From assembly GCA_028554795.2 (NCBI GenBank), contig CM068838.1, forward strand, positions 131,697,428 to 131,761,427: a DNA stretch of 64,000 nucleotides. Reading direction: 5' to 3'. This DNA is from Sinohyriopsis cumingii. Taxonomy: Eukaryota; Mollusca; Bivalvia; Unionida; Unionidae. Shown one piece after another: positions 43,697-60,782 of this stretch. The number at the start of each line of letters is the position of its first letter. Position 1 is the stretch's first letter. Made by a program: the position numbers and the translations under genes. Below the pieces are notes generated by a model. That model did no database searches and had not been told where the DNA came from. It saw nothing but the letters and a program-made list of their open reading frames with translations.

Positions 43697-44075
43697 AGTA
43701 GTAAATGGGGGCACCCTAGCGACAATGGGAATTAGCATTACAAGACCCCTTGGGCAACTCTAGCGACAATGGAAAATTAACATGGAGAAAAATCGTGGGA
43801 CAATCTGGCGACAAGGGAAATTAACATGGAGAAAAATCGTGGGTCACTCTAGCGACAAGGGGAATTTAACATGGAACTATAGTGTGGGTCTGTCTAGCGA
43901 CAAGGGGAAATTAACATGGGAATAGAGTTTGGGTTTGTCTAGGGACAAGGGGAATTGAATATGGGATTTTTTTTTTAAATTTAAATTTAAATTTAAAAAA
44001 AGGGGTAGGCAATGGAAAGGCTATCTCTTTTCGAGAAATATGGCTGGCCCTGAAAAGGGCCTTTGGGTTTTCTTC
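43697..44075 (+). repeat. Polinton left terminal inverted repeat
   Basis: Contains six head-to-tail subrepeats of 44-45 bp marked by CTAGCGACAAGGGGAA (near 43717, 43761, 43806, 43850, 43895 and 43940), then an AAATTTAAATTTAAATTTAAA palindrome-like run (about 43977-43998). The inner end carries the histone-type 3'-end signal described separately. The right repeat is its near-identical complement, with only a few substitutions and a short indel. Confidence 0.92.
44024..44061 (-). terminator. histone-type mRNA 3' end A (in left TIR)
   Basis: On the minus strand: CCCAAA, then the stem-loop GGCCCTTTTCAGGGCC (44061-44046), then AGCCA, then the purine-rich CGAAAAGAGA (HDE-like, about 44033-44024). 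Starts 31 nt after the stop codon of the 44093-44479 gene. It fits the metazoan replication-dependent histone 3' end (A-rich lead, 6-bp stem with UUUC loop, cleavage sequence near ACCCA, U7-binding element). Confidence 0.85.
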
Positions 44076-44092
44076 TTCTTCTTCTTCTGCTT

Positions 44093-44479
44093 CTAATTTC
44101 TTCTTTTTCTCCACCAAGTTCTTATTTTATCTCCAACACTCTTTCTCTTCTTCTCTTTCTTTTTCTCCTGCTCTTCTTTCTTCTTCTCTTCCTCCTCTTC
44201 TTTCTTCCTCTTCTCATTTTCTTCTTCTTTTTCAATCTTTTCGTTCCATTTGCTTATTCTTATTCTTTCCTCTTCATCCTCCTTCTCCTCCTTTATCTCT
44301 TTCATGACACCACTAATCTTGTCCTTTACCTTTTTTAAGTTATTAATTTCCATCTTTACACGATGGGGACTATAGGAATAATGGTCTTCAACCAGTCTTA
44401 TTAACATCTGCTCCATCATTCCTAAGTTGTCTAAAACGTCTTGTAATGTTTGTATTTTGTCCATTTGGTTAGAAGCCAT
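44093..44479 (-). CDS. coiled-coil accessory protein 3 (Polinton left end)
   Basis: 128 codons. N-terminal ~65 residues are helical (MDKIQTLQDVLDNLGMMEQM...), followed by a long Lys/Glu coiled coil (residues ~65-115) and a basic C-terminus (IRTWWRKRRN). Shares layout with the next two genes: short helical head, charged coiled coil. No known family. Upstream: TATA-like AGTATAAGAA at about 44530-44540 and the shared element GGGGATGTTTTCCTTCACG (44541-44570, second copy 44611-44640). Its mRNA would end at the histone-type signal in the terminal repeat. Confidence 0.75.
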   Translation of the reverse strand: MASNQMDKIQTLQDVLDNLGMMEQMLIRLVEDHYSYSPHRVKMEINNLKKVKDKISGVMKEIKEEKEDEEERIRISKWNEKIEKEEENEKRKKEEEEEKKKEEQEKKKEKKRKSVGDKIRTWWRKRRN

Positions 44480-44540
44480 CTTCTTTTTTTATTCTTTGCA
44501 GAATGGTTTGAACGACGAATACTATGGGTTCTTATACTTA

Positions 44541-44640
44541 AAGCGCGTACGTGAAGGAAAACATCCCCCTAAAACGTAAAATTGATCTTACCTAGATCAT
44601 GACCAAACAACGCGCGAACGTGAAGGAAAACATCCCCCTA
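44541..44640 (-). promoter_or_regulatory. shared upstream promoter element, two copies
   Basis: Plus-strand CGTGAAGGAAAACATCCCC, preceded by a GCGCG core, occurs at 44541-44570 and again at 44611-44640. The ~60 bp between (AAATTGATCTTACCTAGATC and ATGACCAAA) are also kept in the promoter of the next gene (45658-45750). It lies directly upstream of the TATA box. Confidence 0.75.
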
Positions 44641-44716
44641 CTTTTTCATTTCATATAATAAAACCGAAACTATACTTTCTAATTTCATATAATAAAAACC
44701 CAAACTATACTCTCCA

Positions 44717-45066
44717 CATACGCTAAGAAACAATAAACAAAATCCATAATCTACTATCCACACAATCTTACGTGAGCGCTTACAAAACCCAAACTATACT
44801 CTTCACATACGCTAAGAACAATAAACAAATCCATAATCTACTATTCACACAATCGTACGTGAGCGGGTACAAACACAAACACAAACACACAAACACATAC
44901 GCTAAGAACAATAAACTAATCCATAATCTACTATCCACACAATCGTACGTGAGCGCTTACAGAACCCTAACTATACTCTTCACCTACGCTAAGAAACAAT
45001 AAAGAAATCCATAATCTACTATTCCCACAAACATACCTGAGCTCTTACAAGCACCAACACACAAAC
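44717..45066. repeat. four ~87-bp tandem units
   Basis: Units begin with ACATACGCTAAGAA at about 44717, 44805, 44895 and 44982 and contain AATCCATAATCTACTAT, CACACAATCGTACGTGAGCG and a variable CA/AC-rich end. Non-coding spacer between accessory cassettes 2 and 3. The regular GTACGTGAGCG site suggests a protein-binding array rather than simple filler. Confidence 0.75.
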
Positions 45067-45149
45067 ACATACCCTCACACTATCTTAAAAAAGAGTTAGT
45101 GTTTATAATCACACTACTCTACCTACACACATTGGCAAATCGATCGTTA

Positions 45150-45187
45150 TTTCTTTTCTAGAGTATTGGGTAGCCCTGAAAAGGGCT
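45150..45187 (-). terminator. histone-type mRNA 3' end B
   Basis: Minus strand: AAACCC, stem-loop AGCCCTTTTCAGGGCT (45187-45172), exact ACCCA (45171-45167), and purine-rich AGAAAAGAAA (45159-45150). Starts 33 nt after the stop of the 45221-45595 gene. The outermost base pair is A-U in place of G-C; the second G that SLBP recognises is kept. Confidence 0.85.
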
Positions 45188-45220
45188 GGGTTTTTTTTTT
45201 TGAACTTCATGGACACCTGG

Positions 45221-45595
45221 TTAATGGTGGCACCTTCCAGGCCTAGCGCCACATACACATCTTATCCCCCAGTTACTTTTTACCTTTTTGGGGGAGAGAG
45301 CAGAGGCAGGATATGTCGTTTCAGAATCCCAATTTTCGCTCTCTGGGATTCTGAAATTTCTTCTTCTCTCCTTTTCCTCCTCCTCCTCTTCTTTGCATCT
45401 TCTCTCCTCCTCTTTGTATCTTCTTTCCTCTTCTTCTTTATATCTTCTCTCCTCCTCTTCTTTGTTTCTTCTTTCCTCCTCCTCTCTTATCCTTCCCTCC
45501 TCCACAATGGCTTCCGCGGCCAATTCATTTAATATGCGCCTGGCATATTCCAGATGCACATGAAGTTCCAACAGTTTCTCCAGTCTCGTGTTCAT
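45221..45595 (-). CDS. coiled-coil accessory protein 2
   Basis: 124 codons: helical head (LEKLLELHVHLEYARRILNE), then a Glu/Arg/Lys coiled coil built of repeated EEEERRYKE units (residues ~40-75), then a non-repetitive tail ending CVCGARPGRCHH. The head resembles those of the two neighbouring genes (L-x-x-L-x-x-x-x-x-L-x-x-x-R), so the three are probably paralogues that diverged in the coiled coil. TATA-like CAGTATAAATT at about 45645-45656 with the shared element just upstream. Confidence 0.75.
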   Translation of the reverse strand: MNTRLEKLLELHVHLEYARRILNELAAEAIVEEGRIREEEERRNKEEEERRYKEEEERRYKEEERRCKEEEEEEKERRRNFRIPESENWDSETTYPASALSPKKVKSNWGIRCVCGARPGRCHH

Positions 45596-45657
45596 TTTTG
45601 GTGTTGATCAATCAACAAGGGTAGCTGGACTGCCGAACGAGTTTCAATTTATACTGA

Positions 45658-45750
45658 AAGCGCGGACGTGAAGGAAAACATCCCCTAAAAACATAAAATT
45701 GATCTTACCTACATCATGACCAAAAAACAACAACGCGCGGACCTAAAAGA
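45658..45750 (-). promoter_or_regulatory. shared upstream promoter element, cassette 2
   Basis: Plus-strand AAAGCGCGGACGTGAAGG followed by AAAACATCCCC, then AAATTGATCTTACCTACATC, ATGACCAAAA and a second partial GCGCGGAC core. Colinear with 44541-44640. Confidence 0.75.
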
Positions 45751-45932
45751 AACACTCACTTTTTATGCTACCCATCACTATTTTAAAATTTTTTATAAAT
45801 CACTTCAATAGACTATCCACATACGCAAAGCAATCCAATCTAACCCCAAATTTACACCTCAAACACCAAAAAAAAGACATCATTTTAATCTACTATCCAT
45901 ACCAACTTACTTAACCACTTACAAACACAAAC

Positions 45933-46062
45933 ACACAAACACATACCCTCACATTTTTTAAAAAAAGAGTTAGTGTTTATTTTCACACTACTCTACCTAC
46001 ACACATTGGCAAATCGATTGTTATTTCTTTTCTGGAGTATTGGGTAGCCCTGAAAAGGGCTG
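45933..46062. repeat. direct repeat of the cassette 3' flank (~130 bp)
   Basis: 45933-46062 and 45060-45188 agree almost throughout: CACATACCCTCACA, GAGTTAGTGTTTAT, CACACTACTCTACCTACACAC and ATTGGCAAATCGAT, then the histone-type 3' end. The duplication shows the cassettes, including the 3'-end signal, spread by copying. Confidence 0.8.
46024..46061 (-). terminator. histone-type mRNA 3' end C
   Basis: Minus strand: AGCCCTTTTCAGGGCT (46061-46046), ACCCA (46045-46041), then AGAAAAGAAA (46033-46024). Starts 28 nt after the stop of the 46090-46446 gene. Same variant as site B. Confidence 0.85.
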
Positions 46063-46089
46063 TTTTTTTTGTTTGCTATGGCATTCTTT

Positions 46090-46446
46090 TTAGTTTCTAA
46101 GAATGCGATGTCCTCTGAGGATAGACTTTCTGGCGATAGGTCTGCTTCTTCGGAAAGAGAAGAAGAACTCTTTGGTGTCGATACGACAATCGACAAAGCC
46201 TCTGTCAGCTTCAGGTTGCTGCTGCTGCTCTTGTTGTTGTTGTTGCTGCTGTCTCTGAAGTCTGTACTTCTCTGTCCATTCTTCTTTTTCCCTGTTCATT
46301 TCTTCTCTGAAGAGCTCTTCTATCAGGTCTTCAGTGATTTTTAACATTCTCACATTCTCTATTTCTTCTGGCTTCGGTATCAGACTGTGTCTGACCCTAT
46401 GCAAATTCACGTAGGCTTCGTTGAGCTTAGCTAGTTTGGAGCACAT
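46090..46446 (-). CDS. coiled-coil accessory protein 1
   Basis: Start chosen at 46446 (MCSKLAKLNEAYVNLHRVRH) because the longer frame runs through the shared promoter element at 46497. 118 codons: helical head, a helix with EELFREEMNREKEEWTEKY, a Gln run (residues ~74-88) and an Arg-rich end (RRSRPIARKSILRGHR). Related in layout to the other two left-end genes. Function unknown. Confidence 0.7.
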   Translation of the reverse strand: MCSKLAKLNEAYVNLHRVRHSLIPKPEEIENVRMLKITEDLIEELFREEMNREKEEWTEKYRLQRQQQQQQQEQQQQPEADRGFVDCRIDTKEFFFSFRRSRPIARKSILRGHRILRN

Positions 46447-46496
46447 CTTCTTAGGAGGATGAGTCGACAATGGAAACAACCCGGTTCTTAAAGTCA

Positions 46497-46525
46497 AAGC
46501 GCGGACGTGAAGGAAAACATCCCCC
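46497..46525 (-). promoter_or_regulatory. shared upstream promoter element, cassette 1
   Basis: Plus-strand AAAGCGCGGACGTGAAGG followed by AAAACATCCCCC, as in cassettes 2 and 3. TTTAAGAAC lies downstream of it in the TATA position (about 46485-46494). Confidence 0.75.
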
Positions 46526-46630
46526 ACACGGTTTTTGAGTCGCAACGTTTAGTGAGTGTCATGAGAGGGATAGTAAGAAATGAAAGAGCATCAATCCAAC
46601 AATCTTATAGCTAAACAAAAGACAAAGGCA

Positions 46631-46815
46631 TTTTTTTCAAAACACAACATTTTTTATTCAAAAATCACTTAACACTAAACAACAACTCTAACATTTTTAA
46701 CAATAATCCAACAATATAACATCAAACAATTTTTTCAAAACACAACATTTTTTATTCAAAAATCACTTAACACTAAACAACAACAACTCTAACATTTTTT
46801 AACAACAATGCAACA
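46631..46815 (-). terminator. duplicated poly(A)-signal module after the capsid gene
   Basis: Two copies (46631-46713 and 46730-46815) of an ~83-bp block, each with one minus-strand AATAAA (46658-46653 and 46756-46751) in the setting TTTTTGAATAAAAAATGTTG. They follow the major capsid stop at 46865. The capsid cluster therefore seems to end by ordinary polyadenylation, unlike the adjacent accessory genes. Confidence 0.7.
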
Positions 46816-46864
46816 CTAAAAGTTTCTCCACTAGGTAAAGAGGGATAACAGTCTTCCATGGTTT

Positions 46865-48178
46865 CTAGTAATCTAGGATGACTTCTCTCAAACTGTTGAT
46901 TTCTATGGTATTATCGAATTCTGCATACAGGATGACGTTCACCGTTTCATCAGGGTCTCGGTCTTTAAACTGAATTTCCACACGAATCTGGCCGGATTTT
47001 ATAGGGTGGAAATGTCCCTCGTCGCTGCCTTGGTCTGGAGTGAAATCGAAAGCCCACAAAGCGTAGCCTCCTGCATAATCCTCGTACGTAATACCGTGAC
47101 TGGTATTGGTTCCTAACTGTCCGGTGGCTTCGTACAAGGACAAGTACGATCTCAAGTAATTCTTCTTTTTAAAGTCAGGTTCGAAAGGTCGGGTACACAA
47201 GGTCTTGCCATCGCGACTGACTTCGATTTTGGACACGCCAAAGTGTTGAAAGTAGAAAGGATTTTTTTCGGCAGCTCCGTTGAAGGCTGTATTCTCGACG
47301 ATACCAACGATCAAACGTTTGGGTAACTGTCCTTGGAACAGATGATCTTCGATCATGGATCGCTGTTCCTTGGGAATGGTGAAGGTTTTCACTTCCACGC
47401 GTCGTATGGGATACTTGGCGGTCGTTCTGCTCAACGTCTGACTGATGTCGTTTCCCACTTTAGGTAACACTTCCACACGGCGTACGTAGAGTCTGGCTTC
47501 TAGGATTTTGGTTTTGTAACCGTCACTATCAGCCATCAAATGGAAAGCGGCACTGCTACGATTCAGTCTCAGGCGGACATCCACCCCGTTCAGCAAATAC
47601 TTTTCTTGCAACCACATGTCCAAATGCAAACGATCCATCAGTTCTAAACTTGTGTCGGCTCCCGTGATTCTCTTTCTTCGTTCTAGAAATCCATCATTGT
47701 TGTCTTTCTTTTCATCAGTTTCCAATATTTCAAACTTGGTAGGTTCGTCAGCTTCCCATACCACACAGGCATTGAGATGAGTGTTCTTGGCATCTATTCC
47801 GTACGTCAAGAGATTTTCCAGGTAGGCACGATAAGGGTAAGTATCCATGCTGCTACTGACCAGTTTGTTATTCAAATACAAGTCCACTCCACTGAACAAG
47901 GAATGCATGAAATTGTTGACGGGAGCTACTGCTTCATCGTCTATAGCACCTCCAGTCTTATCTAGAATTTTGACTTTCAGGTACAAGTAACTGCTATTCA
48001 GATCGATGTAATCTTCGGGCTGTCCTTTGATTTCAAACTCGATGGGAGCGGAATCGGTCAGTGAGGAGACGGGGTGAAATTCCACCCACTGGGATTCTTG
48101 CATCGTCATCATCGTGGGGGGCATGGCAAACAGGTCCAGTTCCGTCTTGGAACAAGCGCAAGATTCTCGGTGCATCAT
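46865..48178 (-). CDS. Polinton major capsid protein
   Basis: 437 codons. The N-terminal KTELDLFAMPPTMMTMQESQ and WVEFHPVSSLTDSAPIEFEI with the following DYIDL are typical of the double-jelly-roll major capsid protein of Polintons/adintoviruses. Motifs such as NNKLVSSSMDTYPYRAYLE lie around residue 105 and the C-terminus ends SLREVILDY. It would form the hexameric capsomers of an icosahedral particle. It looks whole and is tightly packed behind the pVI-like gene (16-bp gap). Confidence 0.92.
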   Translation of the reverse strand: MMHRESCACSKTELDLFAMPPTMMTMQESQWVEFHPVSSLTDSAPIEFEIKGQPEDYIDLNSSYLYLKVKILDKTGGAIDDEAVAPVNNFMHSLFSGVDLYLNNKLVSSSMDTYPYRAYLENLLTYGIDAKNTHLNACVVWEADEPTKFEILETDEKKDNNDGFLERRKRITGADTSLELMDRLHLDMWLQEKYLLNGVDVRLRLNRSSAAFHLMADSDGYKTKILEARLYVRRVEVLPKVGNDISQTLSRTTAKYPIRRVEVKTFTIPKEQRSMIEDHLFQGQLPKRLIVGIVENTAFNGAAEKNPFYFQHFGVSKIEVSRDGKTLCTRPFEPDFKKKNYLRSYLSLYEATGQLGTNTSHGITYEDYAGGYALWAFDFTPDQGSDEGHFHPIKSGQIRVEIQFKDRDPDETVNVILYAEFDNTIEINSLREVILDY

Positions 48179-48194
48179 TTTTTTGTCTCTTTTC

Positions 48195-48611
48195 TCAATA
48201 ATCGAAAACGTCTAAGTCTCGAACGGTTCTTCTTTTCTTGGCCTTTCTCGCTTGAAGTCTGGTGAAAGGGTGTTTTCTTCGTCGTCTCTTTCTGCCTTGT
48301 CCTTGTTGAATGCCTGACTCGGTAGCGTGCAGGGCATTTATAGGTGTTTCTCGTTGGCCTAAAATGTCTTTGCCCGTTTGCAGCAAGACATTTTTGCCTG
48401 CCCTCATGAAGGCTTCTTTAGGGTTTTGTTTGTCGATGATGACATTTTGGAGAAATTCTTTGCCTTGCGTCAGTGCCGCATCTTTCAAGGCGTGCAATCT
48501 GCGTGTCACCATCGGTTTCAACACCGGGGCCACCGAACGAAAGGCCGATTTTAACATATCTCCTAAGCCGTGTCCTCGCTGTTGAGCAACCCCTCGGTAC
48601 ACTGGATACAT
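48195..48611 (-). CDS. pVI-like minor capsid protein
   Basis: 138 codons. Begins MYPVYRGVAQQRGHGLGDML with an amphipathic helix (SAFRSVAPVLKPMVTRRLHA), an Ala/Leu-rich middle and a strongly basic C-terminus (GRKRRRRKHPFTRLQARKAKK). The RG-x-GHGLGD-x-x-x-S-x-F-R-x-x-x-P pattern is that of the Polinton minor capsid protein compared with adenovirus pVI. It lies 3 bp downstream of the penton gene. A homologous region occurs in fossil 1 (7690-8090). Confidence 0.8.
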   Translation of the reverse strand: MYPVYRGVAQQRGHGLGDMLKSAFRSVAPVLKPMVTRRLHALKDAALTQGKEFLQNVIIDKQNPKEAFMRAGKNVLLQTGKDILGQRETPINALHATESGIQQGQGRKRRRRKHPFTRLQARKAKKRRTVRDLDVFDY

Positions 48612-48614
48612 GAC

Positions 48615-49538
48615 TTAAGAGTCGTGAGAGAACCGTTTTCGAAAATGGAGTTTCACCGTGACTTTTCCTTTGGTGAATGCAATATTTTGTCCCAGATCTC
48701 CTTTTATAGCAATGTTGACCGTGTCCAAATACGACTTACTGACAGGCAAATAGTGAGGATGGACAAATTCGCGGTGGACGTGGTAAGTGTTTCCACCTTC
48801 CTCGTCAGTGTTCGTGGCAGAATCCACTTTGAAAGGAATGACACCCAGTAACGGTACGGAGGTGTGTCCCACCACGTTGTACTCCACCACATCGGAATAC
48901 ACGAACATCAAATTCAGTCCTTGGTTCAGTTCTACCGGGGCACGAAATAACTTGCTAAAAGACTCGTTGTCGTAAACGATGGGTAATTCGTTTTTCTTCA
49001 TCATGGTCTTTCTCATGTCCATGTCTCCGCCCAACATGTCATACAATTCAGGACAAAATAAAATGGACAGGATTTTACTCCGTTCAAATTTCATCAAGAA
49101 GCGACGAGCTGTTTTGTGGTATTCCATGGTGACACTTTTTTTGCCACTTTCCAAAGCTTTCAGAAACACGACATTAAACCTGGAGGTTGAGGTGCTGACC
49201 AAATGTTGACCACTAAAATAATAGCCTGGGGGAATGAACAAGTGATAGGTGGTGTACTTTTGTGTACGGGTTTTCTTGTCATATTTGACATTGCTATCCA
49301 TCCACTGTTGCATTTGCTCGTCATGAACTTCCACATCAAAAAAATTTTGATTGGGAAGGACATTGAGGACTTGGGTCGGGTGAATCATTTCTACTAAAGC
49401 CACTTCCCAATGGGCTTCGTGATCTAACTGGATGGCCTGAGGTAATTTGGCCGTGTAACAGCACAACGTGTTCTTGGGAAACACCTCCATGGAACTGTCA
49501 CTGGGTAAAGTTAAGTAAAATTGGTTTTGGTGACTCAT
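48615..49538 (-). CDS. penton (single jelly-roll minor capsid protein)
   Basis: 307 codons. The start MSHQNQFYLTLPSDSSMEVF and the following NTLCCYTAKLPQAI then WEVALVEMIHP are the recognised N-terminal strands of Polinton penton proteins; the end GKVTVKLHFRKRF is the last beta strand. Pentamers would close the capsid vertices. The stop codon region overlaps the next upstream gene's end by 4 nt (49535-49538), typical of compact viral-type operons. Appears whole. Confidence 0.88.
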   Translation of the reverse strand: MSHQNQFYLTLPSDSSMEVFPKNTLCCYTAKLPQAIQLDHEAHWEVALVEMIHPTQVLNVLPNQNFFDVEVHDEQMQQWMDSNVKYDKKTRTQKYTTYHLFIPPGYYFSGQHLVSTSTSRFNVVFLKALESGKKSVTMEYHKTARRFLMKFERSKILSILFCPELYDMLGGDMDMRKTMMKKNELPIVYDNESFSKLFRAPVELNQGLNLMFVYSDVVEYNVVGHTSVPLLGVIPFKVDSATNTDEEGGNTYHVHREFVHPHYLPVSKSYLDTVNIAIKGDLGQNIAFTKGKVTVKLHFRKRFSHDS

Positions 49539-49960
49539 AATTCCAGAGTTCTGTGGCTGTCCGAGGGGTTACTGGACGTCAGAGGCGTGTCTCCGTCTAA
49601 AATGGGGTTCTGGTTGTGATTGAAGTGGTGACTGGCACTGGCACTGGACACAAGGTTCCCTGGGTTCCCGTTCGAGGTGAATTTCAGGGAGGGATTAGGA
49701 AGCAGGTAACCGATGCAACTGCTCAATAAAATGGTCCACAATTGTTTGTCTCCTTGTTGCAAACTCAAATTGGCGATGGCTGCCCCGATGACACAATACA
49801 CCACGAAGATTTGGCAGAAAAAGACGATTTGCGTTTTAGGCACACGTTCTCCACACCACACCCACAAGGGTTGTTTTTGTAAATCTTGCACAGAAGAACT
49901 AGGTGAAGGAGGATTGGTCGACGTAGCTGCGTCTGCTGTGTGAAAGGGCATGATGGTCAC
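49535..49960 (-). CDS. conserved small membrane protein of Polintons
   Basis: 141 codons. Two hydrophobic helices: IVFFCQIFVVYCVIGAAIAN (residues ~45-65) and LWTILLSSCIGYLLPNPSLK (~73-92), with polar Ser/Pro-rich ends. The 'F-x-x-Q-x-x-x-x-Y-x-V...N-L-S-L...LW-x-x-L-L-S-S-C-x-G-Y-L-L-P-x-P' pattern is one I recognise from small proteins next to capsid genes in invertebrate Polintons; role unknown. Overlaps both neighbours by 4 nt. Confidence 0.7.
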   Translation of the reverse strand: MTIMPFHTADAATSTNPPSPSSSVQDLQKQPLWVWCGERVPKTQIVFFCQIFVVYCVIGAAIANLSLQQGDKQLWTILLSSCIGYLLPNPSLKFTSNGNPGNLVSSASASHHFNHNQNPILDGDTPLTSSNPSDSHRTLEL

Positions 49961-51066
49961 TTCTTTTTATAGTCGATGACTTGCGAAGCGTCGATCCAAG
50001 AATCAAAACTGGGTGGATATCCTTTCCAACGTACTTTGACTTCTTTGACACGTCGTTTGCCCACTTTACGGGTTCTGCGTTCGAAAATGCTTTCGATGTC
50101 GTACACGTCGTCTTCTTTTTTGGTGACACGTTGTAACTCGGGCAAATAAAACGTTCCTTTGAGCACTTCTCCGTTCATGTCTTCCAATTTATAGACGGCA
50201 GGATGACGGCCATGCACTCGTCCAGTGACGCGAAACAATTCGGTCGTCCAGTTAGGTAAGTAACCTTTGTCGAAAGTGCGTTTGGTTTTGCCAATGCGCA
50301 CCCAATCTCCTACGGCCAACTCTCCACTTTTCTTGGGGACAGCCCTCGTCGGGGACGTACCAAACAGGCGCTCAAACACCAACACTTCGTTCTCGGGAGT
50401 CACGTCTTGCGAGGCACGTCCGATGCTTCGATGGTAAGATTGGTTGTACGCTTGCACCAGGTGCGGTAAGATGTCGATGTACTTCAGAGTGTGGTGATGC
50501 GTAAAATATTTCCACATGCGTTCTTTCAAAGTGCGTTGAAAACGTTCCACGATGCTGGCTTTGGTTTCGGGATTCTCGGTGGTAAAAAAATGAATGTCAC
50601 GTTTCTTTAATTCTTTTTGGAAAGCTTGGTTCAGAAATTCGGTGCCTTTGTCCGTTTGCCATCGAAGAGGGTGACGACCGCTTTGTTTCAACACCCGTTG
50701 CAGGGCTCGCACTAACTCGCTGCTCGATTTGGAAGTCAAGGGCACGACCCAGGCAAATTTGGAAAAGACGTCGATGACACAAAACAAATATTTGTAGCCA
50801 CGATTGTAGCTGGCCAAATGAGAGACATCGGCTAAATCGGCTTGCCATTGATGATCGATGCCTTGCACTCGGGTGCGACTTCTGGCAAACTTGCGTCGAA
50901 TGGGTTTGTGTAAAGTGTAGGTAGCTTGTTCTTGTAACCATCGTTGCACTTGAGGTAAACGGAGACTTTTCAGTCGCGTTTTGGCAGCACGATACAATTT
51001 TTGAACTCCTGCGTAACCTGCAGGATGGGAGGGATCGTAGTAAATGCTGGCTAAGACTTTTTCCAT
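49957..51066 (-). CDS. Polinton integrase with chromodomain
   Basis: 369 codons. The retroviral-type integrase core has the acidic triad at about D77 (WQADLADVSHL), D139 (WQTDKGTEFLNQ) and E174 (KASIVERFQRTLKERM). An SH3-like DNA-binding part follows (GELAVGDWVRIGKTK), and a C-terminal chromodomain at ~320-366 (VKVRWKGYPPSFDSWIDASQ). Chromodomains can direct insertion to particular histone marks. The enzyme joins the element ends to target DNA with 6-bp staggered cuts, consistent with the GTTATT duplication seen. Looks whole. Confidence 0.93.
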   Translation of the reverse strand: MEKVLASIYYDPSHPAGYAGVQKLYRAAKTRLKSLRLPQVQRWLQEQATYTLHKPIRRKFARSRTRVQGIDHQWQADLADVSHLASYNRGYKYLFCVIDVFSKFAWVVPLTSKSSSELVRALQRVLKQSGRHPLRWQTDKGTEFLNQAFQKELKKRDIHFFTTENPETKASIVERFQRTLKERMWKYFTHHHTLKYIDILPHLVQAYNQSYHRSIGRASQDVTPENEVLVFERLFGTSPTRAVPKKSGELAVGDWVRIGKTKRTFDKGYLPNWTTELFRVTGRVHGRHPAVYKLEDMNGEVLKGTFYLPELQRVTKKEDDVYDIESIFERRTRKVGKRRVKEVKVRWKGYPPSFDSWIDASQVIDYKKK

Positions 51067-51087
51067 TTTTTTGTGCTGGTTGGTGTG

Positions 51088-51723
51088 TTAATAAGACACC
51101 CACTCTTGGAGGATGCTACTCTTTTTCTCTTGGGGTATTTTCTTGGATTGCAATGCTTTGCGTGTGCGACGAGCAATAGGTGTCGAAGAGGAGAAGGATG
51201 TCTGAGCGGGGGATATCGGTTCTTGTTTCACTTCTGTCTTCACTTCTGTCTTCACTTTCTTTTTCTCTTCTGAGGAAGAAGGGGTGGCCATCATCTTTTT
51301 AATCCATCCAATTCTGGAGGTAGGTGGTGTTGTTAACTTGCGTACTTTTTCTGGCGGAGTTTGAAACCCTTCCTCTTCTCCTTTTTCTGTCTTGGTCACG
51401 GGTACTGGTGGTACTGGTACTGGTACTGGTGATGGTGCTGGACTTTTCATCAAGGTCTTAAAATCTTTCAGAGTGGGTAGAGCTGTTTCGTCTAAAGCTT
51501 TCTGGTGAAAGAGTTGCAGTCGTTGCAAGAGTTGACCGTACTTTTGCGATTTTTCTGTTTCGGACAAATCTTGGCGATCCATCAAAGACTGCAGTTCGTG
51601 TTGTAACTGGGACATCTCGCTCAAATGGGGATTGGGAGGTAAATGCGGGGTGTGTTGTTCTTGCCACCGATGGTATTCCATCCATCGTTTGTAAGGCACT
51701 AAAGCTAGTTTTCGTCCTTCCAT
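51088..51723 (-). CDS. conserved Polinton protein of unknown role
   Basis: 211 codons. N-terminus MEGRKLALVPYKRWMEYHRW, a helix with LSETEKSQKYGQLLQRLQLF (residues ~54-73), a Pro/Val-rich linker (PAPSPVPVPVPPVPV) and a Lys/Ser-rich C-terminal part. 'ALVP' plus the 'L-x-x-x-E-K-x-x-x-Y-x-x-L-L-x-R' helix recurs in unassigned Polinton proteins usually encoded near the integrase. TATA-like GATAAAAAGG about 45 bp upstream (near 51768). Confidence 0.6.
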   Translation of the reverse strand: MEGRKLALVPYKRWMEYHRWQEQHTPHLPPNPHLSEMSQLQHELQSLMDRQDLSETEKSQKYGQLLQRLQLFHQKALDETALPTLKDFKTLMKSPAPSPVPVPVPPVPVTKTEKGEEEGFQTPPEKVRKLTTPPTSRIGWIKKMMATPSSSEEKKKVKTEVKTEVKQEPISPAQTSFSSSTPIARRTRKALQSKKIPQEKKSSILQEWVSY

Positions 51724-51771
51724 GGGGTTGTCAGGGGTCGATTCTGAGATCTTGGAACTTCCGAGGCCTTT

Positions 51772-52158
51772 TTATCTTGCTCCCACCAGTCCTCCCAACA
51801 TGGTTCCCAAGACTCCTTTCAGTATGGGGCCTAACAAGAGAGGTAAAATACCTCCACGTTGCACTAACATCTTCTTTTTTTGACGAATGGGAATTTTCTT
51901 TTGAACCATTTGGCGAAGAACGTGACGATGTTTGCCTAAGCATTGTTTCTGGTGTTTGGACAAAGGGATCGTGCCTTTCAAAACGTTTAAACAACATTCG
52001 CACACGTTATCGATGACCTCTTTGGAGGCTGTTTGAATGAGTTTTTTTCGTAGGGGTGGAGAAGCTTTGGACAGGACAGATAACATGTCCCCATGTTTGG
52101 CTAAACGTGGTGGCAGTCCTTTCCTTTTCTTTCCTTGGGGTTTTCTGGAGGGTGACAT
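51772..52158 (-). CDS. PX-like core protein
   Basis: Start placed at 52158 (MSPSRKPQGKKRKGLPPRL), because the longer frame would translate the TATA box TATAAAAAAG at about 52213-52221. 128 codons: basic head, a helical ASKEVIDNVCECCLNVLKGT segment, a Lys-rich stretch and a Gly/Leu hydrophobic C-terminus (RGGILPLLLGPILKGVLGTM). This is the well-known Polinton protein with an adenovirus pX/mu-like hydrophobic end. It probably binds DNA in the virion core. The downstream gene 52218-53138 looks like a paralogue. Confidence 0.75.
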   Translation of the reverse strand: MSPSRKPQGKKRKGLPPRLAKHGDMLSVLSKASPPLRKKLIQTASKEVIDNVCECCLNVLKGTIPLSKHQKQCLGKHRHVLRQMVQKKIPIRQKKKMLVQRGGILPLLLGPILKGVLGTMLGGLVGAR

Positions 52159-52217
52159 CTTTGAGTCTTCAGGAGCACCAAAAAAACACTGATACCCGAC
52201 TTGGTCACAGGCCTTTT

Positions 52218-53138: not shown

Positions 53139-53190
53139 GTTCGCACTGTATGAGACAGACGAAAAAGGGTCTGAGGTTTTTATAGATTTT

Positions 53191-53903
53191 TTATGGGGAG
53201 TGAAATGAAGTCGAGGACGGAGACGTGTACAGGACAGGCCCTCCGTCTTGGCACCAGTGGTGAAACAAGTGGGTACGAAATCGCAAATCCTCGGGAGTCG
53301 TAGGTTTCAAATCGACGAGTAAATAGGCGTGTGGCGTTTGAGTGGCATCGTCGTACGCCTGAGTCAGCCAAGGCGTTCCTAACTGTTTGGCTAAGACTTG
53401 CACTTGCGATTTATCTCGAGGGCTTTTAAACAAGACCACGTAATGCGCATTGAGACTGATGGTGCGATGGGCTTTACTTTGTTGAAACAAATTTTGGGTG
53501 ATGTAAACGACACTGGCATTACGGTGATGCCCTTTGCGCGTGAACCACAGTTTAATTTCTTCTTCGTCTTCTCCTAATATGTCGTCGAAAATGACCAAAT
53601 GGGTTTGACGGGAATGCCTTCCACAAACACGATGGAATCGCCTTGACTTTCTCGCAAGAGGCTGTACGCCGATTGCCACTCTTTGTAACACCACACGATC
53701 CGTTGAGGGGGCCGATCGATCAAATGATGTTTATGTTCGATCAAACGTTTGACGAATTCAGTTTTGCCAGAACCGCTAGGTCCAGCAATCAGCATGTTAA
53801 AGGGATGGCGAAGATACAAAGCCTCCCAACTGACACGATCTAAGTGTTCGTCGATGACTTTGACAGTAGAGGAAGAGGGAGCAGAGACAGTAGAGGTAGC
53901 CAT
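53191..53903 (-). pseudogene. A32/FtsK-type packaging ATPase, interrupted
   Basis: Start taken at 53903 (MATSTVSAPSSSTVK), with a TATA box GTATATAAACTC about 50 bp upstream. Walker A GPSGSGKTEF and Walker B HLVIFDDILGE are present in the expected order, with the later part containing VVLFKSPRDKSQVQVLAKQL and HAYLLVDLKP. This family pumps DNA into the capsid. The coding region is broken about once. Confidence 0.8.
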
Positions 53904-53974
53904 GGTGTGAGGAATGTCACTTGTGACACGAAAAAACAAACAAGACAAGAGTTTATATACTTTTTCAGAACACG

Positions 53975-54397
53975 TTTATTGAATGTTTTTTTCAAACATG
54001 AATACGAAAGACAAAAATACATAAAAGCCAAAGGCTTAAGTACAAGAATAAAAGGCACATGAACGTGGAATAAAAAACAAGTGTCTGTACAACAACCACA
54101 TGTTTTGGGTAACGTTCTAACCAGTTCTATAGTAGGGGGTAAGGTCACACAAGTGTCCTCCCGAAAGGGTCTTTCAGGCCTGTCCACGACAGTCCTGTCC
54201 TGAGTGACGGGTTCTTCTGGCACCGTCACTAACACAGGTTGAAAAGTAACTTTTTTCCTTGAATAACTCTCGTGCATACTGGGCCACCTCTTGTGTCCAA
54301 GCCTCAAAACCCTGGTCTCAGTGATGTCCAACATTTGACTCCTAACCAATCTGGTTTCTTCTTCGTCAACGACATGGTAAGTTACTTCAATGAACAA
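53975..54397 (-). other. possible small gene between ATPase and polymerase
   Basis: A TATA box (GCATATAAAAAGG, about 54423-54435) and an AATAAA (53980-53975) frame about 450 bp. The open frame within it (EETRLVRSQMLDITETRVLR ... TCGCCTDTCFLFHVHVPFIL) has no ATG at its upstream end and continues past the poly(A) signal, so the true coding part is uncertain. Transcription signals suggest a real transcript. Confidence 0.35.
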
Positions 54398-54506
54398 TGA
54401 ACTATTGGTCTTGGACGTTGTCCCTTTTTATATGCTGACCAATATCGATGTGACCGTACGGCAACGTAAAGTGATTGGGAAGTCTCACTCGCTTCTGGTA
54501 CACGAT

Positions 54507-57500
54507 TCAATAGATTTTTTCCAGGGGCCGACTGACGATGTGGTGAGTGGGTAAACGTACAATCTTGTTCGGTTGATAAGTGGTCACTTTAAAGTTTCCA
54601 TCCTCTCCCGATTGCAAGGCTTCTTTCAATACCCCAAAGTTGACCACTCGACTGGTACGATGATTCAGAGTCAGTCCTTTCACTTTGCACGTCGTGTGCA
54701 CTTCTCCTTGTTTGTCCCGGTATTCGTAGCCGTAATTTTTGGGACCACCACTGACGAAACTTAGAATCTTGTCGTCGGGATGCTCGTCTGTCCAGGCTCC
54801 TAAACGGTCTTCTTCGATGTCAGGGTGCTGTTGAATCGGGTGATGGATGTAAATGCAACTGTCCGTGTCAAAGTACAGGACGCGTTCTTCTAACAGTTCT
54901 AAAGCTTCGTACAATTTTAAGCGAGCATGGGCTGTCACGTAAGCCGCAATGATGACATTTCCAAAAGGGTCGTCTTGTACAAAGTCCAGATCTTCTTCGT
55001 AATTGACCAAGATCAAATCCTCTCGAACGACGTCCACGTGTTTCATGTATTTGGTTTTGTCGTGAATCATCTGGAAGTAGTGGGAAGGTTCTGTCAAATA
55101 TTCCGTCTTGGGTAAACACGGTCGTTGTGCCATTTTACCCCACAAGCAATTTAACATCACTTTGGCAAACGATCGCCTGCCTTCGTTTTTTTCGATGTGG
55201 TCTAAAGAGATGCCTTCTTGTGCGTAGTATTTCTCTTAGAATTGTATTTGGTCTTCGGGAGTGTGACACCAGGAAGGATAGCCGCTGGCTTCTTGTTTCA
55301 GTTTCAAAAAGGCATCCACGTAGTCGGCGAAAATGCCTTTCTGAGTAGGGTCACCCTTGTGGTACTGTTGTGTCTTGGGAAAGTGGCAAATTTCGTACAC
55401 TTTTAACAGTTGGTATCCCATGTCCAGAGCTTTGAACAATTCCACGCTGACCCAGGTTCCCGTCAAGGCACGTTCTTCCTGGCTGTGATGGCAAGGTTGG
55501 TCCTGATTGCACGTTTCGGCACAAGTACGGCACAAGGGAAACATCAGTTTGCCTTGACAATGGTGAGGTAAGACGGGATGGTATAGGTTCGTGGGATGCA
55601 AAACTTTACACTTGATCAAGCCTTCGTATTGTCGAATGTTTTTCAGGTCGATGTGTTCCGTGAACAATTGCGGGTGCCCTACAGGAAAGCGACAATATTT
55701 GCACACGTAGGGATACATCGAACACACGTCCAAGTATTTGATTTCTTCTCCTTTCTCTTCGTCGGCATGGTACAGCAAACAGGTGGCATTGGTCCTTCCT
55801 CCGTACAAACTATCCCTCGGGTTCAGCGGGTCCATGAACTGGTAACTTTCCACGAGGCGTTTAAACTCGGGATCGGTTTTCAAACGGTGATCGTACTCGT
55901 GTTCCCACATTTCCACCACTTGGTATCCTTGCTGTTCTAACTTTAGGCGTCGCTGACAAGTGTCCTGGTACAAGTCTTCCGTGGTTCGTTGCAAAAACTG
56001 ATTTTTAGTGTCACGGTCAGGGTAACAGATGGGACATCCGTGAAATAAGCAACCGTTAAACTCGTACACGATCTTGGGGTTTTCTAAGTCACAGCCTTCT
56101 ACCTAATACGTTCTGATGGTCTTTTCGCCGCCTCCGTTGCGGGCATGCTGAATCCATTTGTCTTCCTTGTCGCACAAGTAATGTAACCAACGTAGGGCTT
56201 TGACCGAGTATTGACGCTTGACATAGTGGGTCGTTTGAGGACTGATGACAGCCACGGTGTTTTCAGGCATGAATTGTTGGCGGTACACTAAGGAACACGC
56301 TTTGGCAATGGTGCAAGCTTCTTTCAAAGGATCGACCCCTCCGTGTTCCATGAACAGTTCTCGAAATTTTCCACAGCAACGTCGTAAAATGTCCACGTCG
56401 GAACGACAATACTTTAACATTTCTTCCTGAAAGTCGAAGGGGTCAGAGGCATGAGCCTGGTACCAAGCGTAGAAAGCTTCTCGTTGTTCGGTACGCATGT
56501 TGTCGGGGTCGTAATAGTGAGCCTCAGGTAAATGGGGTAGAACGGCATGTTGATTGGCTTCCGTATTGAAAAAGTGTGGAAAGTACCCTTTAGCCATTTC
56601 TGTCATTCCAAACGTTTTAGGCATTCGACTCAAAGGCATGGCCAAGTAACTCATCGAATCTTTAAACTGTACTTGTCCCACTTGCATGAAAATGATTTTG
56701 GCTCCGTTCAAAGTGACTTTAGGACGTTCGGTGCCTTGTTCCGTATAGTATCTGAGAAGAAACTGTCCATCGTATCCGGAGAAATTGTGAGCCATCACCG
56801 TGGCATGACGATGACAATCTCCGTAACGTTCGATGTCCTCTTTGCTCCATGTCTTGTCGATGGGGTCTAAGACCCATTGGGCAAAATCGGCTAACGTGTT
56901 TGGTCCTCGAAAGATTTTTTTCACGTCCTCCAGGAATGTTGCTGCAGTGAGGGCAATGACTGAAGATAGGTTCTTGAATGCACTTCTTGCACGCTCGATG
57001 AGCCACGCAGAAATTAGGAATGTGAATGCCAGTCTCTTGCATGCATTCGAAATCGAAAAAGATGAAATTGCCTTTCTTCTTGTGACCGTCCTCTTCCTCT
57101 GGTGGGGGTTGGTATTTTTGCACGTAACATTCGTGTTCCAAGTCCACGATGTGGTGACAAATGTGACATTTTTTCTTTCCTCGACATACGTGTGCCTTGG
57201 TACTATTGGTACGTATGCCTTGTCCACACGTAGGGCACAATCTCAGGAGTTGACAAGCACATTTCTTCTGTGAACCTTGTGTTTTCAAATGTTGCTGGTA
57301 ACAGGTAGGGCTGACAAACGTGCGCAGACAAGTTGAACAAGGCACTGGTTCTTCGCTCAGACAGGGTGGAGAGGCCAAACATCCTGGGCATTTCCATCCA
57401 CAAGACTTGTGTTGCTCTCGATTGTTATAACCATAATCACATTTCTCACAATAATAACTGTATCCCAGGAATCCAGTGATACTGGTAATGGTATCGAAAT

Positions 57501-58468
57501 GTTCATCGTGATAATAGACATGAATGTATTTTCCGTCCTTAAAATCTTGGCCTCGAAACAACAGAGTTCCGCGCATTTCTTGAGGGTGCACTTTCAAGGT
57601 GTAGCGTGGAGCTAGGGCATCTTGCAATTTTTGCATCTCAGGAATGCCACAGGGTGTGTCTTTGGACAGTCCGGCTTGTTGTAACAGGAGTTCTGCTTCA
57701 TTTCGTTGTTTGGCTCGATCGGATTGTTGAATAGTTTTCCAGGTTCTTTTCCATTCTACCGTGTCGTTCTTGTTGGCATAGGTTAGTTCCACCACGATGG
57801 CACGGGCTAAACACATCTGGTCTTGAGGGTGTGAATTCGGACGAGACTTGTTTTGGTGTTGCGAAGGTTGTCCACCAATAACATCTTTTTGCGTCCTGTC
57901 CCTTGAGGAAGAGAGACGTGGGCCATTTTCAGTGTGGCTTTACCATCGGTGATGTCAAACTGGTCATATTAGATTGTTGTACGTGTTGAATCTTGTCCAT
58001 GATTTTGGAAGGGGTTAGTTCTGCCGGTCTGCTAAACTCGATCCAAACAGGGGATTTCAAACCGTCGTGATCTATGGATAGTGTCAAGCGATCGTCTTCT
58101 TTGGGTTGACATTGTCGCTTGAGTGAGGTGAGCAAAGAATCCCACATCTCGGTGATAAACCCTTCTGCTTTCTCCAAGGGTACGTCGGCCTTGAAATCTT
58201 TAAACTTAACCGTGTAGGTGTAAGCCGTGGTTCTAAATTTTCTAGAGGAGCGCTTTTCCGTCTCTCGAATGGAATAGTACTTTTCAGGGTTGACTAAGGG
58301 TGGTGAACTTGGTTTAGAGGGTTCGGATTCTGGTTCACTCATGTCCTCTTCAAAATCACTGGCATGAATTTGTGCCAAGATTTCAGCCCTGGTACGAGGC
58401 GATAGATCACGTTTCTGCCTCTTACTTTCTTCTTCTTCTTTCTTCTCGAATGAATAGGATCGTTTCAT
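54507..58468 (-). pseudogene. protein-primed DNA polymerase B, interrupted
   Basis: Over ~4 kb all the expected parts are seen in order: an N-terminal region (57929-58468), Cys-rich knuckles, exonuclease motifs (FIFFDFECMQ; AHNFSGYDGQF; YCRSDVDIL), polymerase motif A (YLDVCSMYPYV), motif B (MLNCLWGKMAQ) and motif C (YFDTDSCIY). These define the Polinton-type pPolB that replicates the linear element from a terminal protein. The coding region has about three breaks. A TATA-like CTATAAATTAG lies upstream near 58515-58525, in a divergent promoter shared with the zinc-knuckle gene. Confidence 0.88.
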
Positions 58469-58601
58469 CTAGAGTGCAAAACGTCAAATGACTCAAGTTC
58501 AAACACCATAGACTAATTTATAGTCGTGGCAAACCAGCGTATATAAAAAGGGTGTGTCTTGTCCTTTCACTATTCATTTCACTCTCAAACCGAGGAGAAC
58601 G
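58469..58601. promoter_or_regulatory. divergent promoter, polymerase / zinc-knuckle gene
   Basis: Minus-strand TATA (CGACTATAAATTAGTC, about 58512-58527) faces the polymerase; plus-strand TATA (GTATATAAAAAGGG, about 58538-58551) faces the zinc-knuckle gene whose ATG is at 58602. Both boxes have ordinary spacing to their genes. Confidence 0.6.
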
Positions 58602-59187
58602 ATGGAAGAGACTAGCCAAATCGAACGTTTCGTCAGAGCTTTGCGAGGGGTCATTAGAAAATTCTCTTCAGAGCAGCCGACAGACTACTCTCCTTCCTTT
58701 CGAGATAAGAGTCAGGATACTTGCTATATCTGTCAGAAGAAAGGGCATTGGTCTTCAGAGTGTCCAGACCGTCAAAAAAGAAAAAAAAAACAGGGGCTAA
58801 AAAAGACAAAAGTCAAGATACCTGTTATTATTGTAAAGAAAAAGGACATTGGTCTCCAGATTGCCCAAAAAAGAAACAAGAGGAGTCAGAAGAAAAGAAG
58901 GATTCTTCAGAAGAAGAGAGGGATTCTTTGGAAGAAGAGAGGGATTCTTAGAAAGAAGAGAGGGATTCTTCAGAGGAAGAAAGAAGACAATTCTATTTAA
59001 AAGAAGCAAAGAAACAGGAGAAGAAAAGAAGAAGGGAAGAAAATGAGGAAAAAACGGTGAAGAAATTCAAAAAACAGAGAGACTAAACAAGGAGAAAGAA
59101 GAAGTCAATGAACTTTTAATTAAAGTGTTGTGCTGTGAATTGGATTGTAAAAAATGGATAAAAGAATACATGAATGATATAAGGTAA
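58602..59187 (+). pseudogene. CCHC zinc-knuckle protein of the Polinton, interrupted
   Basis: Starts MEETSQIERFVRALRGVIRK. Two retroviral-type knuckles are recognisable, CYICQKKGHWSSEC and CYYCKEKGHWSPDC (C-x2-C-x4-H-x4-C), within near-duplicate stretches of DNA, followed by a long Lys/Glu repeat of EEERDSLEE type and an end like NELLIKVLCCELDCKKWIKE. Knuckles of this sort bind single-stranded nucleic acid. Interrupted about twice, in repetitive or homopolymer-rich DNA. No histone-type 3' end follows it. Confidence 0.6.
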
Positions 59188-59307
59188 GTGTCTTTGAGTT
59201 TTGATTTTAAAATAAGAAGCTACACTCACGCACTCATACACAGACACGTACTATAAGGGTAAAATGGGTGGGGTTTGTTTTTGAGTTATTGGCAAATTGA
59301 AATTGTA

Positions 59308-59345
59308 TTTCTTTTCGAGAAATGTGGGTGGCCCTGAAAAGGGCC
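59308..59345 (-). terminator. histone-type mRNA 3' end D (best match)
   Basis: Minus strand: AAAAAGG lead, stem-loop GGCCCTTTTCAGGGCC (59345-59330), ACCCA (59329-59325), then CGAAAAGAAA (59317-59308). Starts 25 nt after the stop of the 59371-59931 gene. All parts fit the consensus of metazoan replication-dependent histone mRNAs. Confidence 0.9.
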
Positions 59346-59370
59346 TTTTTATTTTGGTGTAGGGGTGAGT

Positions 59371-59931
59371 TTAACCAATCAACTTTAACTGCCTTAAGCC
59401 TTTGCCACGGCCAAGGCCTACTTCTGATGATTGGGTTGAAATCACTAAGGGTGGTACGATAGGCTTAGTCACAGGGTTGGCGTGTTTAGCTCGGGAAGGT
59501 CGTATTCTCTTCGGTCGTGATAAAGAAGTCTGATACATTTGTTTCAGACTTCTTAACTCCGCTAAAATGTCCAACAGTACCGTAGCCGTTTGATTTTCAC
59601 CCTCTTGTTTCTTTGCTGCTACTTCTTCTTGCTGTTGTTGCTGTTGTTTTTTTCTTACCTCTTCTTGTTGCTGTTGCTGTTGCTGTAGGAGAAAAGCTTG
59701 TTCCGCTTCCTTTTGTCGTTGCATAAATTTCTCCAATTCTTCTTTCTGTCTCTGTCTAAAATTCTCCACTTGCGGTAATGAAGAAGGTAACGAAGGTTCC
59801 GGAACAAATTCTTGCGAGGTAAGAAAATCCACAAAATCCCAATGTACCTCTTCTGAAAGTAAGTCCGGGTTCCCTTGGGCAGTCTCCCCTGCTGGTGCAC
59901 CCCAATGGATCGTTTTCTGAGTTTCCGTCAT
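59371..59931 (-). CDS. Gln/Glu coiled-coil accessory protein 4 (right end)
   Basis: 186 codons: acidic head (HWDFVDFLTSQEFVPEPSLP), a coiled coil rich in Arg/Gln/Glu (FRQRQKEELEKFMQRQKEAE) with two Gln runs, a helix LLDILAELRSLKQMYQ and a basic tail (SRPKRIRPSRAKHA). Unknown family; similar in style but not clearly related to the left-end proteins. Shares a divergent promoter with the plus-strand gene at 60151; its transcript would end at the histone-type signal D. Confidence 0.75.
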   Translation of the reverse strand: MTETQKTIHWGAPAGETAQGNPDLLSEEVHWDFVDFLTSQEFVPEPSLPSSLPQVENFRQRQKEELEKFMQRQKEAEQAFLLQQQQQQQEEVRKKQQQQQQEEVAAKKQEGENQTATVLLDILAELRSLKQMYQTSLSRPKRIRPSRAKHANPVTKPIVPPLVISTQSSEVGLGRGKGLRQLKLIG

Positions 59932-60150
59932 GTTGAATCACTGTCGCATAGATTGACTGCACACAAGCGCTAACGAATCTATATAGACCACGTGACGTCA
60001 CAGACTGCTCTTTTCGGATTGGATGCGAGCTGACTGAATTTTGTAACGCGTGTTCGGATTGGTGAATGAATTCAATCCGTTTCAATCCTTCCTGTACCTA
60101 TAAATAAGCGCAGTTCACTGCATTGATTCACCTATTCTCGTCGCTTCAAG
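59932..60150. promoter_or_regulatory. divergent promoter with CRE and CCAAT boxes
   Basis: TATA for the minus gene (CTATATAG, 59979-59986), TATA for the plus gene (CTATAAATAAG, about 60098-60108), a perfect palindromic CRE TGACGTCA (59993-60000) and two inverted CCAAT boxes in the repeated setting TCGGATTGG (about 60014-60022 and 60054-60062). CCAAT and CRE-type sites with TATA are also usual in animal histone gene promoters. Confidence 0.65.
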
Positions 60151-60387
60151 ATGTGGACCACAGTTGAGTCATCTACCCTTGTGTCTTCCATGATGTTTAG
60201 GACGGACATGCTCATGTATGTCAGGTCCAAGTGGACTGTTGTTGATAGGACAGATACTAGTCAATGGATGAGGAGAGTTTACATAGAAAGACAAGGATGT
60301 CTCAAGAGGGTACTTGTGTATGGACCGGCAGTTAGAAGGAGTTTAAGAAGAAGAAGAAGAAGATGTGACAGATGCCATCTATGTTAA
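60151..60387 (+). CDS. small Arg-rich accessory protein 5 (right end)
   Basis: 78 codons, ATG at 60151 about 45 bp after the TATA box. N-terminal 45 residues mixed; the C-terminus RRSLRRRRRRCDRCHLC combines an Arg block with a C-x2-C-x2-C cluster, suggesting binding to nucleic acid. Not recognised. Its stop falls in a perfect palindrome ATGTTAATATTAATATTAAC... (60381-60402), and the histone-type 3' end E follows in the terminal repeat. Confidence 0.65.
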   Translation: MWTTVESSTLVSSMMFRTDMLMYVRSKWTVVDRTDTSQWMRRVYIERQGCLKRVLVYGPAVRRSLRRRRRRCDRCHLC

Positions 60388-60399
60388 TATTAATATTAA

Positions 60400-60782
60400 C
60401 ATAAACCCAAAGGCCCTTTTCAGGGCCAGCCATATTTCTCGAAAAGAGATAGCCTTTCCATTGCCTACCCCTTTTTTTAAATTTAAATTTAAATTTAAAT
60501 TTTAAAAAAAAATCCCATATTCAATTCCCCTTGTCCCTAGACAAACCCAAACTCTATTCCCATGTTAATTTCCCCTTGTCGCTAGACAGACCCACACTAT
60601 ATTTCCATGTTAAATTCCCCTTGTCGCTAGAGTGACCCACGATTTTTCTCCATGTTAATTTCCCTTGTCGCCAGATTGTCCCACGATTTTTCTCCATGTT
60701 AATTTTCCATTGTCGCTAGAGTTGCCCAAGGGTTCTTGTAATGCTAATTCCCATTGTCGCTAGGGTGCCCCCATTTACTACT
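60400..60782 (-). repeat. Polinton right terminal inverted repeat
   Basis: Near-identical complement of 43697-44075, with the same six 44-45-bp subrepeats, the AT run and the histone-type signal. Ends CCCCCATTTACTACT directly before GTTATT. Confidence 0.92.
60412..60449 (+). terminator. histone-type mRNA 3' end E (in right TIR)
   Basis: Plus strand: ACCCAAA lead, GGCCCTTTTCAGGGCC (60412-60427), AGCCA (60428-60432) and CGAAAAGAGA (60440-60449). Starts 24 nt after the stop of the 60151-60387 gene. It is the mirror copy of site A, because both lie in the terminal repeats; the outermost gene at each end therefore reads outward into it. Confidence 0.88.

Follow-up and report, generated by a model that had tools for sequence, protein, structure and literature searches.

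In the bivalve Sinohyriopsis cumingii, a Polinton, a virus-like mobile element, carries small accessory genes towards both its ends that appear to finish their messenger RNAs (mRNAs) through the host's replication-dependent histone route, a reading of the sequence to which we give a probability of about 80%. The element lies within a 64,000-nucleotide (nt) stretch of contig CM068838.1, referred to here as the window, and its features are listed in Table 1. It is identified as a Polinton because it combines terminal inverted repeats (TIRs) with a chromodomain integrase, pieces of a family B DNA polymerase and an F54H12.2-like protein of 437 amino acids (aa), the putative Polinton major capsid protein. 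With TIRs, a retrovirus-type integrase and a family B polymerase, it belongs to the Polinton/Maverick group.

Five genes of the element (P0001-P0005), each a single open reading frame (ORF), are followed by a 16-nt hairpin with a stem of 6 bp and a loop of 4 nt, then by ACCCA or AGCCA, and then by a purine block, GAAAAGA[A/G]A, that starts exactly 13 nt past the hairpin. This arrangement is that of metazoan replication-dependent histone 3' ends, as described by the Rfam family Histone3 (RF00032): a stem-loop with a CCAAA or A-rich 5' flank, an ACCCA-type cleavage region, a purine block at 13 nt, a short 3' untranslated region (UTR) and a single-ORF gene. The difference is that the Polinton genes encode small accessory proteins and no histones. 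When the whole window was searched for RGCCCTTTTCAGGGCY with up to two mismatches, exactly five places were found, all without mismatch and all at these sites. Dinucleotide shuffles of the 64 kb gave a mean of 0.06 and a maximum of 2 matches, and a chance origin was rejected.

These sites had first been pointed out in a reading made from the letters alone, without database searches (the sequence-only reading), and both the pattern search and RF00032 recovered them at the positions and strands given there. Its placement of the hairpins 24-33 nt past the stop codons, in coding orientation, also held for all five genes (31 nt for P0002, 33 for P0003, 28 for P0004, 25 for P0005 and 24 for P0001). 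The covariance-model check that it proposed places three of the five sites above the RF00032 gathering score of 34 and two below it. Hairpin, ACCCA or AGCCA and purine block are indeed present after all five genes; the number of independent cases is smaller than that reading implied, since two sites (44024 and 60412) are copies within the arms of one TIR and two others (45150 and 46024) belong to a duplicated block of 189 nt whose copies are 88% identical. Over 54 nt, the module at 59308 in turn matches the TIR module at 87%. About three independent cases are therefore present in the window. A fold of the purine block into a hairpin of its own (TCTC-GAAA-AGAGA) was considered and set aside by eye, as the base that precedes GAAAAGAGA can be C, T, A or G and no partner base changes with it.

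Table 1. Features of the Polinton in window coordinates (E-values are from a search of 18.5 kb)
Feature	Coordinates	Strand	Remarks
Left terminal inverted repeat	43697..44070		inner end contains the P0002 histone-type 3' end
P0002 3' end	44021..44066	-	CCAAA, hairpin 44061-44046, AGCCA, GAAAAGAGA; RF00032 35.6 bits
Accessory gene P0002	44093..44479	-	128 aa, charged, helical-looking; no Pfam match above cut-off
P0003 3' end	45147..45192	-	AGCCC-stem variant, ACCCA, GAAAAGAAA; RF00032 27.1 bits, below gathering, E 5.2e-4
Accessory gene P0003	45221..45595	-	124 aa
P0004 3' end	46021..46066	-	AGCCC-stem variant, ACCCA, GAAAAGAAA; RF00032 30.9 bits, below gathering, E 2e-5
Accessory gene P0004	46090..46446	-	118 aa
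Two AATAAA signals (46756-46751 and 46658-46653)	46653..46756	-	3' of the 437-aa gene; conventional poly(A) signals without a hairpin
437-aa protein	46865..48178	-	F54H12.2-like set of bivalves, by name only
Integrase with chromodomain	49957..51066	-	Pfam rve 53.8 bits, Chromo 29.3 bits, both above cut-off
Family B DNA polymerase region	55236..57816	-	three reading frames here (broken)
P0005 3' end	59306..59350	-	hairpin 59345-59330, ACCCA, GAAAAGAAA; RF00032 41.2 bits
Accessory gene P0005	59371..59931	-	186 aa, Q/E-rich, basic PKRIRPSRAK stretch
Accessory gene P0001	60151..60387	+	78 aa, pI 11.2, C-terminus Arg-rich, Cys-bearing
P0001 3' end	60407..60452	+	CCAAA, hairpin 60412-60427, AGCCA, GAAAAGAGA; RF00032 35.6 bits
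Right terminal inverted repeat	60403..60782		repeat search

The host's own histone genes provide the closest comparison. An H4 query gave 114 matches in the host genome (2.9 Gb, 1138 contigs), most of them in tandemly repeated units about 8.3 kb long. One such unit (L086) holds five complete Histone3 hits, belonging to H2A (39.4 bits), H2B (38.2), H4 (37.7), H3 (35.9) and a gene that was not identified (35.0), and a sixth that is cut by the end of the locus. Like the Polinton ends, these genes have GGCCCTTTTNAGGGCC stems and a GAAAAG[AG] block 13-14 nt past the stem, which reads GAAAAGA in four of them and GAAAAGG in H2A (the H4 block was read from the sequence). The description of the Polinton purine block as histone-type thus stands, as it equals that of the host histone genes at the same spacing. 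The flanks differ: the histone genes of this unit carry AAAAC or CAAAC (one is CAAA-type) before the stem and ACA, ATA or ACT after it, whereas the Polinton ends carry CCAAA or AAAAA before and ACCCA or AGCCA after. The difference after the stem speaks against the Polinton ends having been copied recently from these histone genes. On the Histone3 model the best Polinton 3' ends outscore the host histone genes seen, with up to 45.6 against 35.0-39.4 bits.

The same ends recur across the host genome. In an RF00032 search of the genome, 75 of 589472 first-look candidates were scored; all 75 exceeded the gathering score (34.5-45.6 bits) and all fell in loci of this Polinton group. Protein searches (tblastn) matched an accessory gene in 73 of these loci (P0001 in 52, P0002 in 12, P0003 in 20, P0005 in 51, P0004 in none), with P0002 homologues sitting directly 5' of a hairpin; of the remaining two loci, one (L038) has an ORF of a coiled-coil family described below and the other (L067) ends in the C-terminal peptide of that family. 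The possibility that the scored loci contain histone genes was rejected, with none of the 75 matching H2A, H2B, H3 or H4. Since host histone genes of 35.0-39.4 bits are absent among the 75, this set is not a genome-wide count, and the absence of histone genes applies to the scored hits only.

Hairpins that had played no part in choosing the loci, being those of second genes in loci picked for another hairpin, are of the exact class in 60 of 70 cases (P0001 23/24, P0003 16/20, P0005 21/26); one of the ten misses is a P0005 hairpin cut by the end of its locus, and nine are small hairpin changes. In six loci picked by P0004 (the first six of at least 150 listed), a hairpin follows P0004 in all six, and a second is found 0.8-0.9 kb beyond it, at the place that P0003 occupies in the window, again in all six (12/12 together). 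These loci are 95.9-97.4% identical to the window and therefore add little evolutionary time. The retention of the hairpins in related copies, which the sequence-only reading had taken as a test, is thus borne out.

Conservation was measured as mean pairwise column identity in the hairpin sets not used for picking. For P0001, identity is.721 in the coding tail,.995 in the stem,.809 in the ACCCA slot,.877 in the spacer,.937 in the purine block and.588 in the next 60 nt. The corresponding values are.837,.944,.946,.755,.961 and.862 for P0003, and.976,.952,.953,.868,.985 and.736 for P0005. A larger set of 165 hairpins, which includes those picked by the model and was collected by a rule favouring the known form, has a [GA]AAAAG start 13 nt past the hairpin in 154 cases and 14 nt past it in 3, with none found in 8. 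The accessory genes have very short 3' UTRs. A search for AATAAA no more than 170 nt past the ORF end covered four gene families; three of them seldom carry it (5/51 copies of P0001, 0/6 of P0002 and 0/20 of P0003), and P0005 has it at 17/48 copies.

Two homologues from public records also bear on these ends. P0007, a homologue of P0001 (77%), and P0140, a homologue of P0005 (62%), both run past the usual end of the protein, and their tail peptides match the in-frame translation of the hairpin and purine block. With 12 loci as references, the tails score 61 (P0007) and 59 (P0140), and none of the 60 shuffles made for each tail exceeds 31. No such read-through tail was found in the other 18 P0005 homologues (full or part length) or in P0006.

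Taken as a mechanism, these features suggest that each accessory transcript would carry a stem-loop of the SLBP type and, 13 nt on, a purine block able to pair with the host U7 small nuclear RNA (snRNA). According to the part of PMC2781718 consulted, the downstream element of histone pre-mRNAs pairs with U7, cleavage falls between stem-loop and element, and the stem-loop stays in the mRNA and gives coordinate regulation. Cleavage in the Polinton transcripts would fall just past ACCCA or AGCCA and leave a short, non-polyadenylated mRNA. Histone-type messages are produced and maintained chiefly during DNA replication, so expression of the accessory proteins would be expected in the S phase of the host; the genes on the capsid side, in contrast, seem to rely on standard AATAAA signals. 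The use of the host's histone-mRNA machinery, as the sequence-only reading had proposed, is supported by the RF00032 hits, the kept hairpins and the host-like purine block. What the sequence shows is the cis-elements and their position after the stop codons, their conservation, the identity of key parts with host histone genes and the scarcity of AATAAA in three of four families; the use of SLBP and U7, the cleavage, the S-phase timing and any benefit to the element are what we infer from them.

Several observations weigh against this route. Two of the five window sites score below the RF00032 gathering threshold (30.9 and 27.1 bits). Modules have been copied within elements, so the conserved copies are not all independent. 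The coding tail of P0005 is as conserved as its stem, and the 60 nt downstream of P0003 are also well kept; the contrast in conservation is therefore strong for P0001 and weaker to moderate for P0003 and P0005. The AATAAA signals near P0005 ends include one in the window copy (59353-59348). Polinton contigs from distant relatives lack the feature, with no Histone3 hit in the five scanned (L012 left out) and no match to a relaxed pattern in all six, although their ends may be missing. Finally, neither RF00066, for which the control was silent too, nor two sequence patterns detected a host U7 snRNA. The first pattern, CTCTTTTN{0,6}AATTTGTCTAG, gave one site against one in the reversed control, and this site was rejected as no strong stem lies behind it. 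The second, TCTTTTCN{0,6}AATTTGTCTNG, gave 153 sites (100 listed) against 7 in the control. Most of those listed were rejected as one repeat, common to four fetched copies and L104, and one frame of its L095 copy looks integrase-like by eye (FCVIDVFSKFVWVVPL). Five other places (L098, L100-L103) were discarded, as they showed no convincing U7 3' stem.

Other explanations of the module have to be set against processing by the histone route under S-phase control. The one that survives best, although we consider it unlikely, is that the module does no more than form compact 3' ends and terminate transcription, with processing by the histone machinery and no cell-cycle timing, and so blocks run-out from the element and into convergent genes. 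The outward orientation of both TIR copies, the position of the P0005 site between P0005 and the convergent ORF 58602-59000 (+), and the very short 3' UTRs would all suit such a role. However, AATAAA would serve equally well and is in fact present 3' of the element's 437-aa gene. Moreover, as the animal stem-loop itself gives coordinate regulation in the consulted part of PMC2781718, timing would follow unless it were prevented.

It is improbable that the module is a captured histone 3' sequence, spread by copying within the element and carried as a functionless passenger by mRNAs that are polyadenylated. The partial copying of modules within the element and the AATAAA signals near P0005 ends are what this explanation would predict, but conservation is focused on the stem and the purine block, most clearly after P0001, and most copies of the other genes have no AATAAA. 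In addition, the first pair of the stem is G-C in 125 and A-T in 34 of the 165 hairpins, a change that keeps pairing, and each pair of the stem is formed in 160-165 of them. Least credible is a role of the hairpins as DNA, for example in replication, packaging or transposition, with the histone likeness secondary: each TIR does hold one hairpin, but the others are internal, each hairpin stands 3' of a stop codon in coding orientation, a purine block at a fixed 13 nt and ACCCA are kept that a DNA hairpin would not need, and host histone genes share the arrangement.

The proteins encoded by the five genes have little in common beyond this end. P0001-P0005 show no mutual BLAST similarity at E 0.1, though the 3' end is common to all five, and none has a Pfam histone domain. 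The structure predicted for P0001 (mean pLDDT 62.8, pTM 0.44) was too low in confidence for a structure search. On balance, we favour the broader reading that this lineage has built a movable histone-type 3'-end cassette on at least four to five mutually dissimilar accessory genes, placing a regulatory or early set of genes under host S-phase control while the capsid genes are polyadenylated, which would make them the first natural non-histone client of SLBP and U7 in a mobile element.

Further genes may have acquired the same end. Among 12 loci where the hairpin gene is none of P0001, P0002 and P0005, eight upstream ORFs are related to each other and unrelated to P0001-P0005 by BLAST, and form a further, coiled-coil family. 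The C-terminus of this family is common to L025 and L067, and its KIRGW C-terminal peptide looks like that of P0002, which may reflect a distant relationship (both comparisons by eye). No ORF upstream of the hairpin was obtained in L008 and L056. The 332-aa ORF before the central hairpin of L038 appears by eye to join an N-terminal part like an adenovirus-type cysteine protease to the coiled-coil family; Pfam gave nothing above cut-off for it.

Other features of the element were noted alongside. A 43-nt motif with a AAAGCGCGNACGTGAAGGAAAACATCCCCC core precedes P0002, P0003 and P0004 (44527-44638, 45644-45686 and 46483-46525) and looks like a shared upstream promoter element. An AT-rich palindrome, TATGTTAATATTAATATTAACATA, at 60379-60404 begins at the stop codon of P0001, just 5' of the hairpin; in other copies its letters change and its palindromic form is kept. 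A splice-donor-like AGGTAAGT lies at 59180-59190, downstream of the ORF convergent with P0005, which encodes a zinc knuckle. A 98-nt tandem duplication (46629-46784) in the 3' region of the 437-aa gene has doubled its AATAAA signal.

The TIR arms are 99% and 100% complementary in two repeat pairs, with 100% over the inner 97 nt. Within the polymerase region, DNA_pol_B_2 exceeds the Pfam cut-off in 55236-55910 and 56103-56795, the third ORF (56719-57816) has no Pfam match, and copies elsewhere in the genome have long open frames. Named relatives of the 437-aa protein come from Mercenaria, Crassostrea, Ostrea and Saccostrea. Candidates for the packaging ATPase score below the Pfam cut-off (FtsK 22.9 bits, Pox_A32 20.5 bits), and no Polinton protease was identified in the element. 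Copies are numerous and of recent origin: among the matches listed (at least 150 in each search, out of more than 20000 candidates), those to a polymerase piece are 98-100% identical and those to P0004 are all 100% identical in protein, which points to very recent amplification.

The histone-type end marks this Polinton lineage; outside this genome, the distant Polinton contigs scanned do not show it. The six contigs concerned (L009-L014), probably of animal origin, were found in bacterial metagenome-assembled genomes, for example of symbionts of Escarpia and Bathymodiolus, where they are likely host contamination; a TIR search in three of them found none. Among viral contigs, searches with a PolB piece, with the capsid-type protein and with an alignment of that protein yielded no relative, and two patterns detected no exact histone end. 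The element shares an integrase, a family B polymerase, TIRs and a capsid-type protein with bivalve Polintons of the F54H12.2-like capsid set and with adintoviruses. It differs from them in its histone-type 3' ends, for which no precedent in Polintons or transposons was found in the open-access literature, in agreement with the sequence-only reading. An RF00032 call has also been made in the SARS-CoV-2 genome, according to the part of PMC7786107 consulted; it differs in scoring 14.7 bits against a gathering score of 34 and in its location, which is within a coding sequence of an RNA virus and away from any gene end.

To our knowledge, histone-type 3' ends are regarded as nearly private to histone genes. 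In the portion of PMC2781718 consulted, no evidence was reported as of 2009 for SLBP functions outside histone biosynthesis. If the histone route is indeed used here, a selfish element with at least 150 near-identical copies listed would represent a naturally occurring SLBP/U7 client other than histone genes. Histone3 matches in animal genomes can be transposon genes, which calls for caution in annotation. The histone-type signals suggest that a virus-like mobile element has tied several of its small genes to the phase of host DNA replication, which would give Polintons a concrete means of timing gene expression to the replication of their host's DNA.

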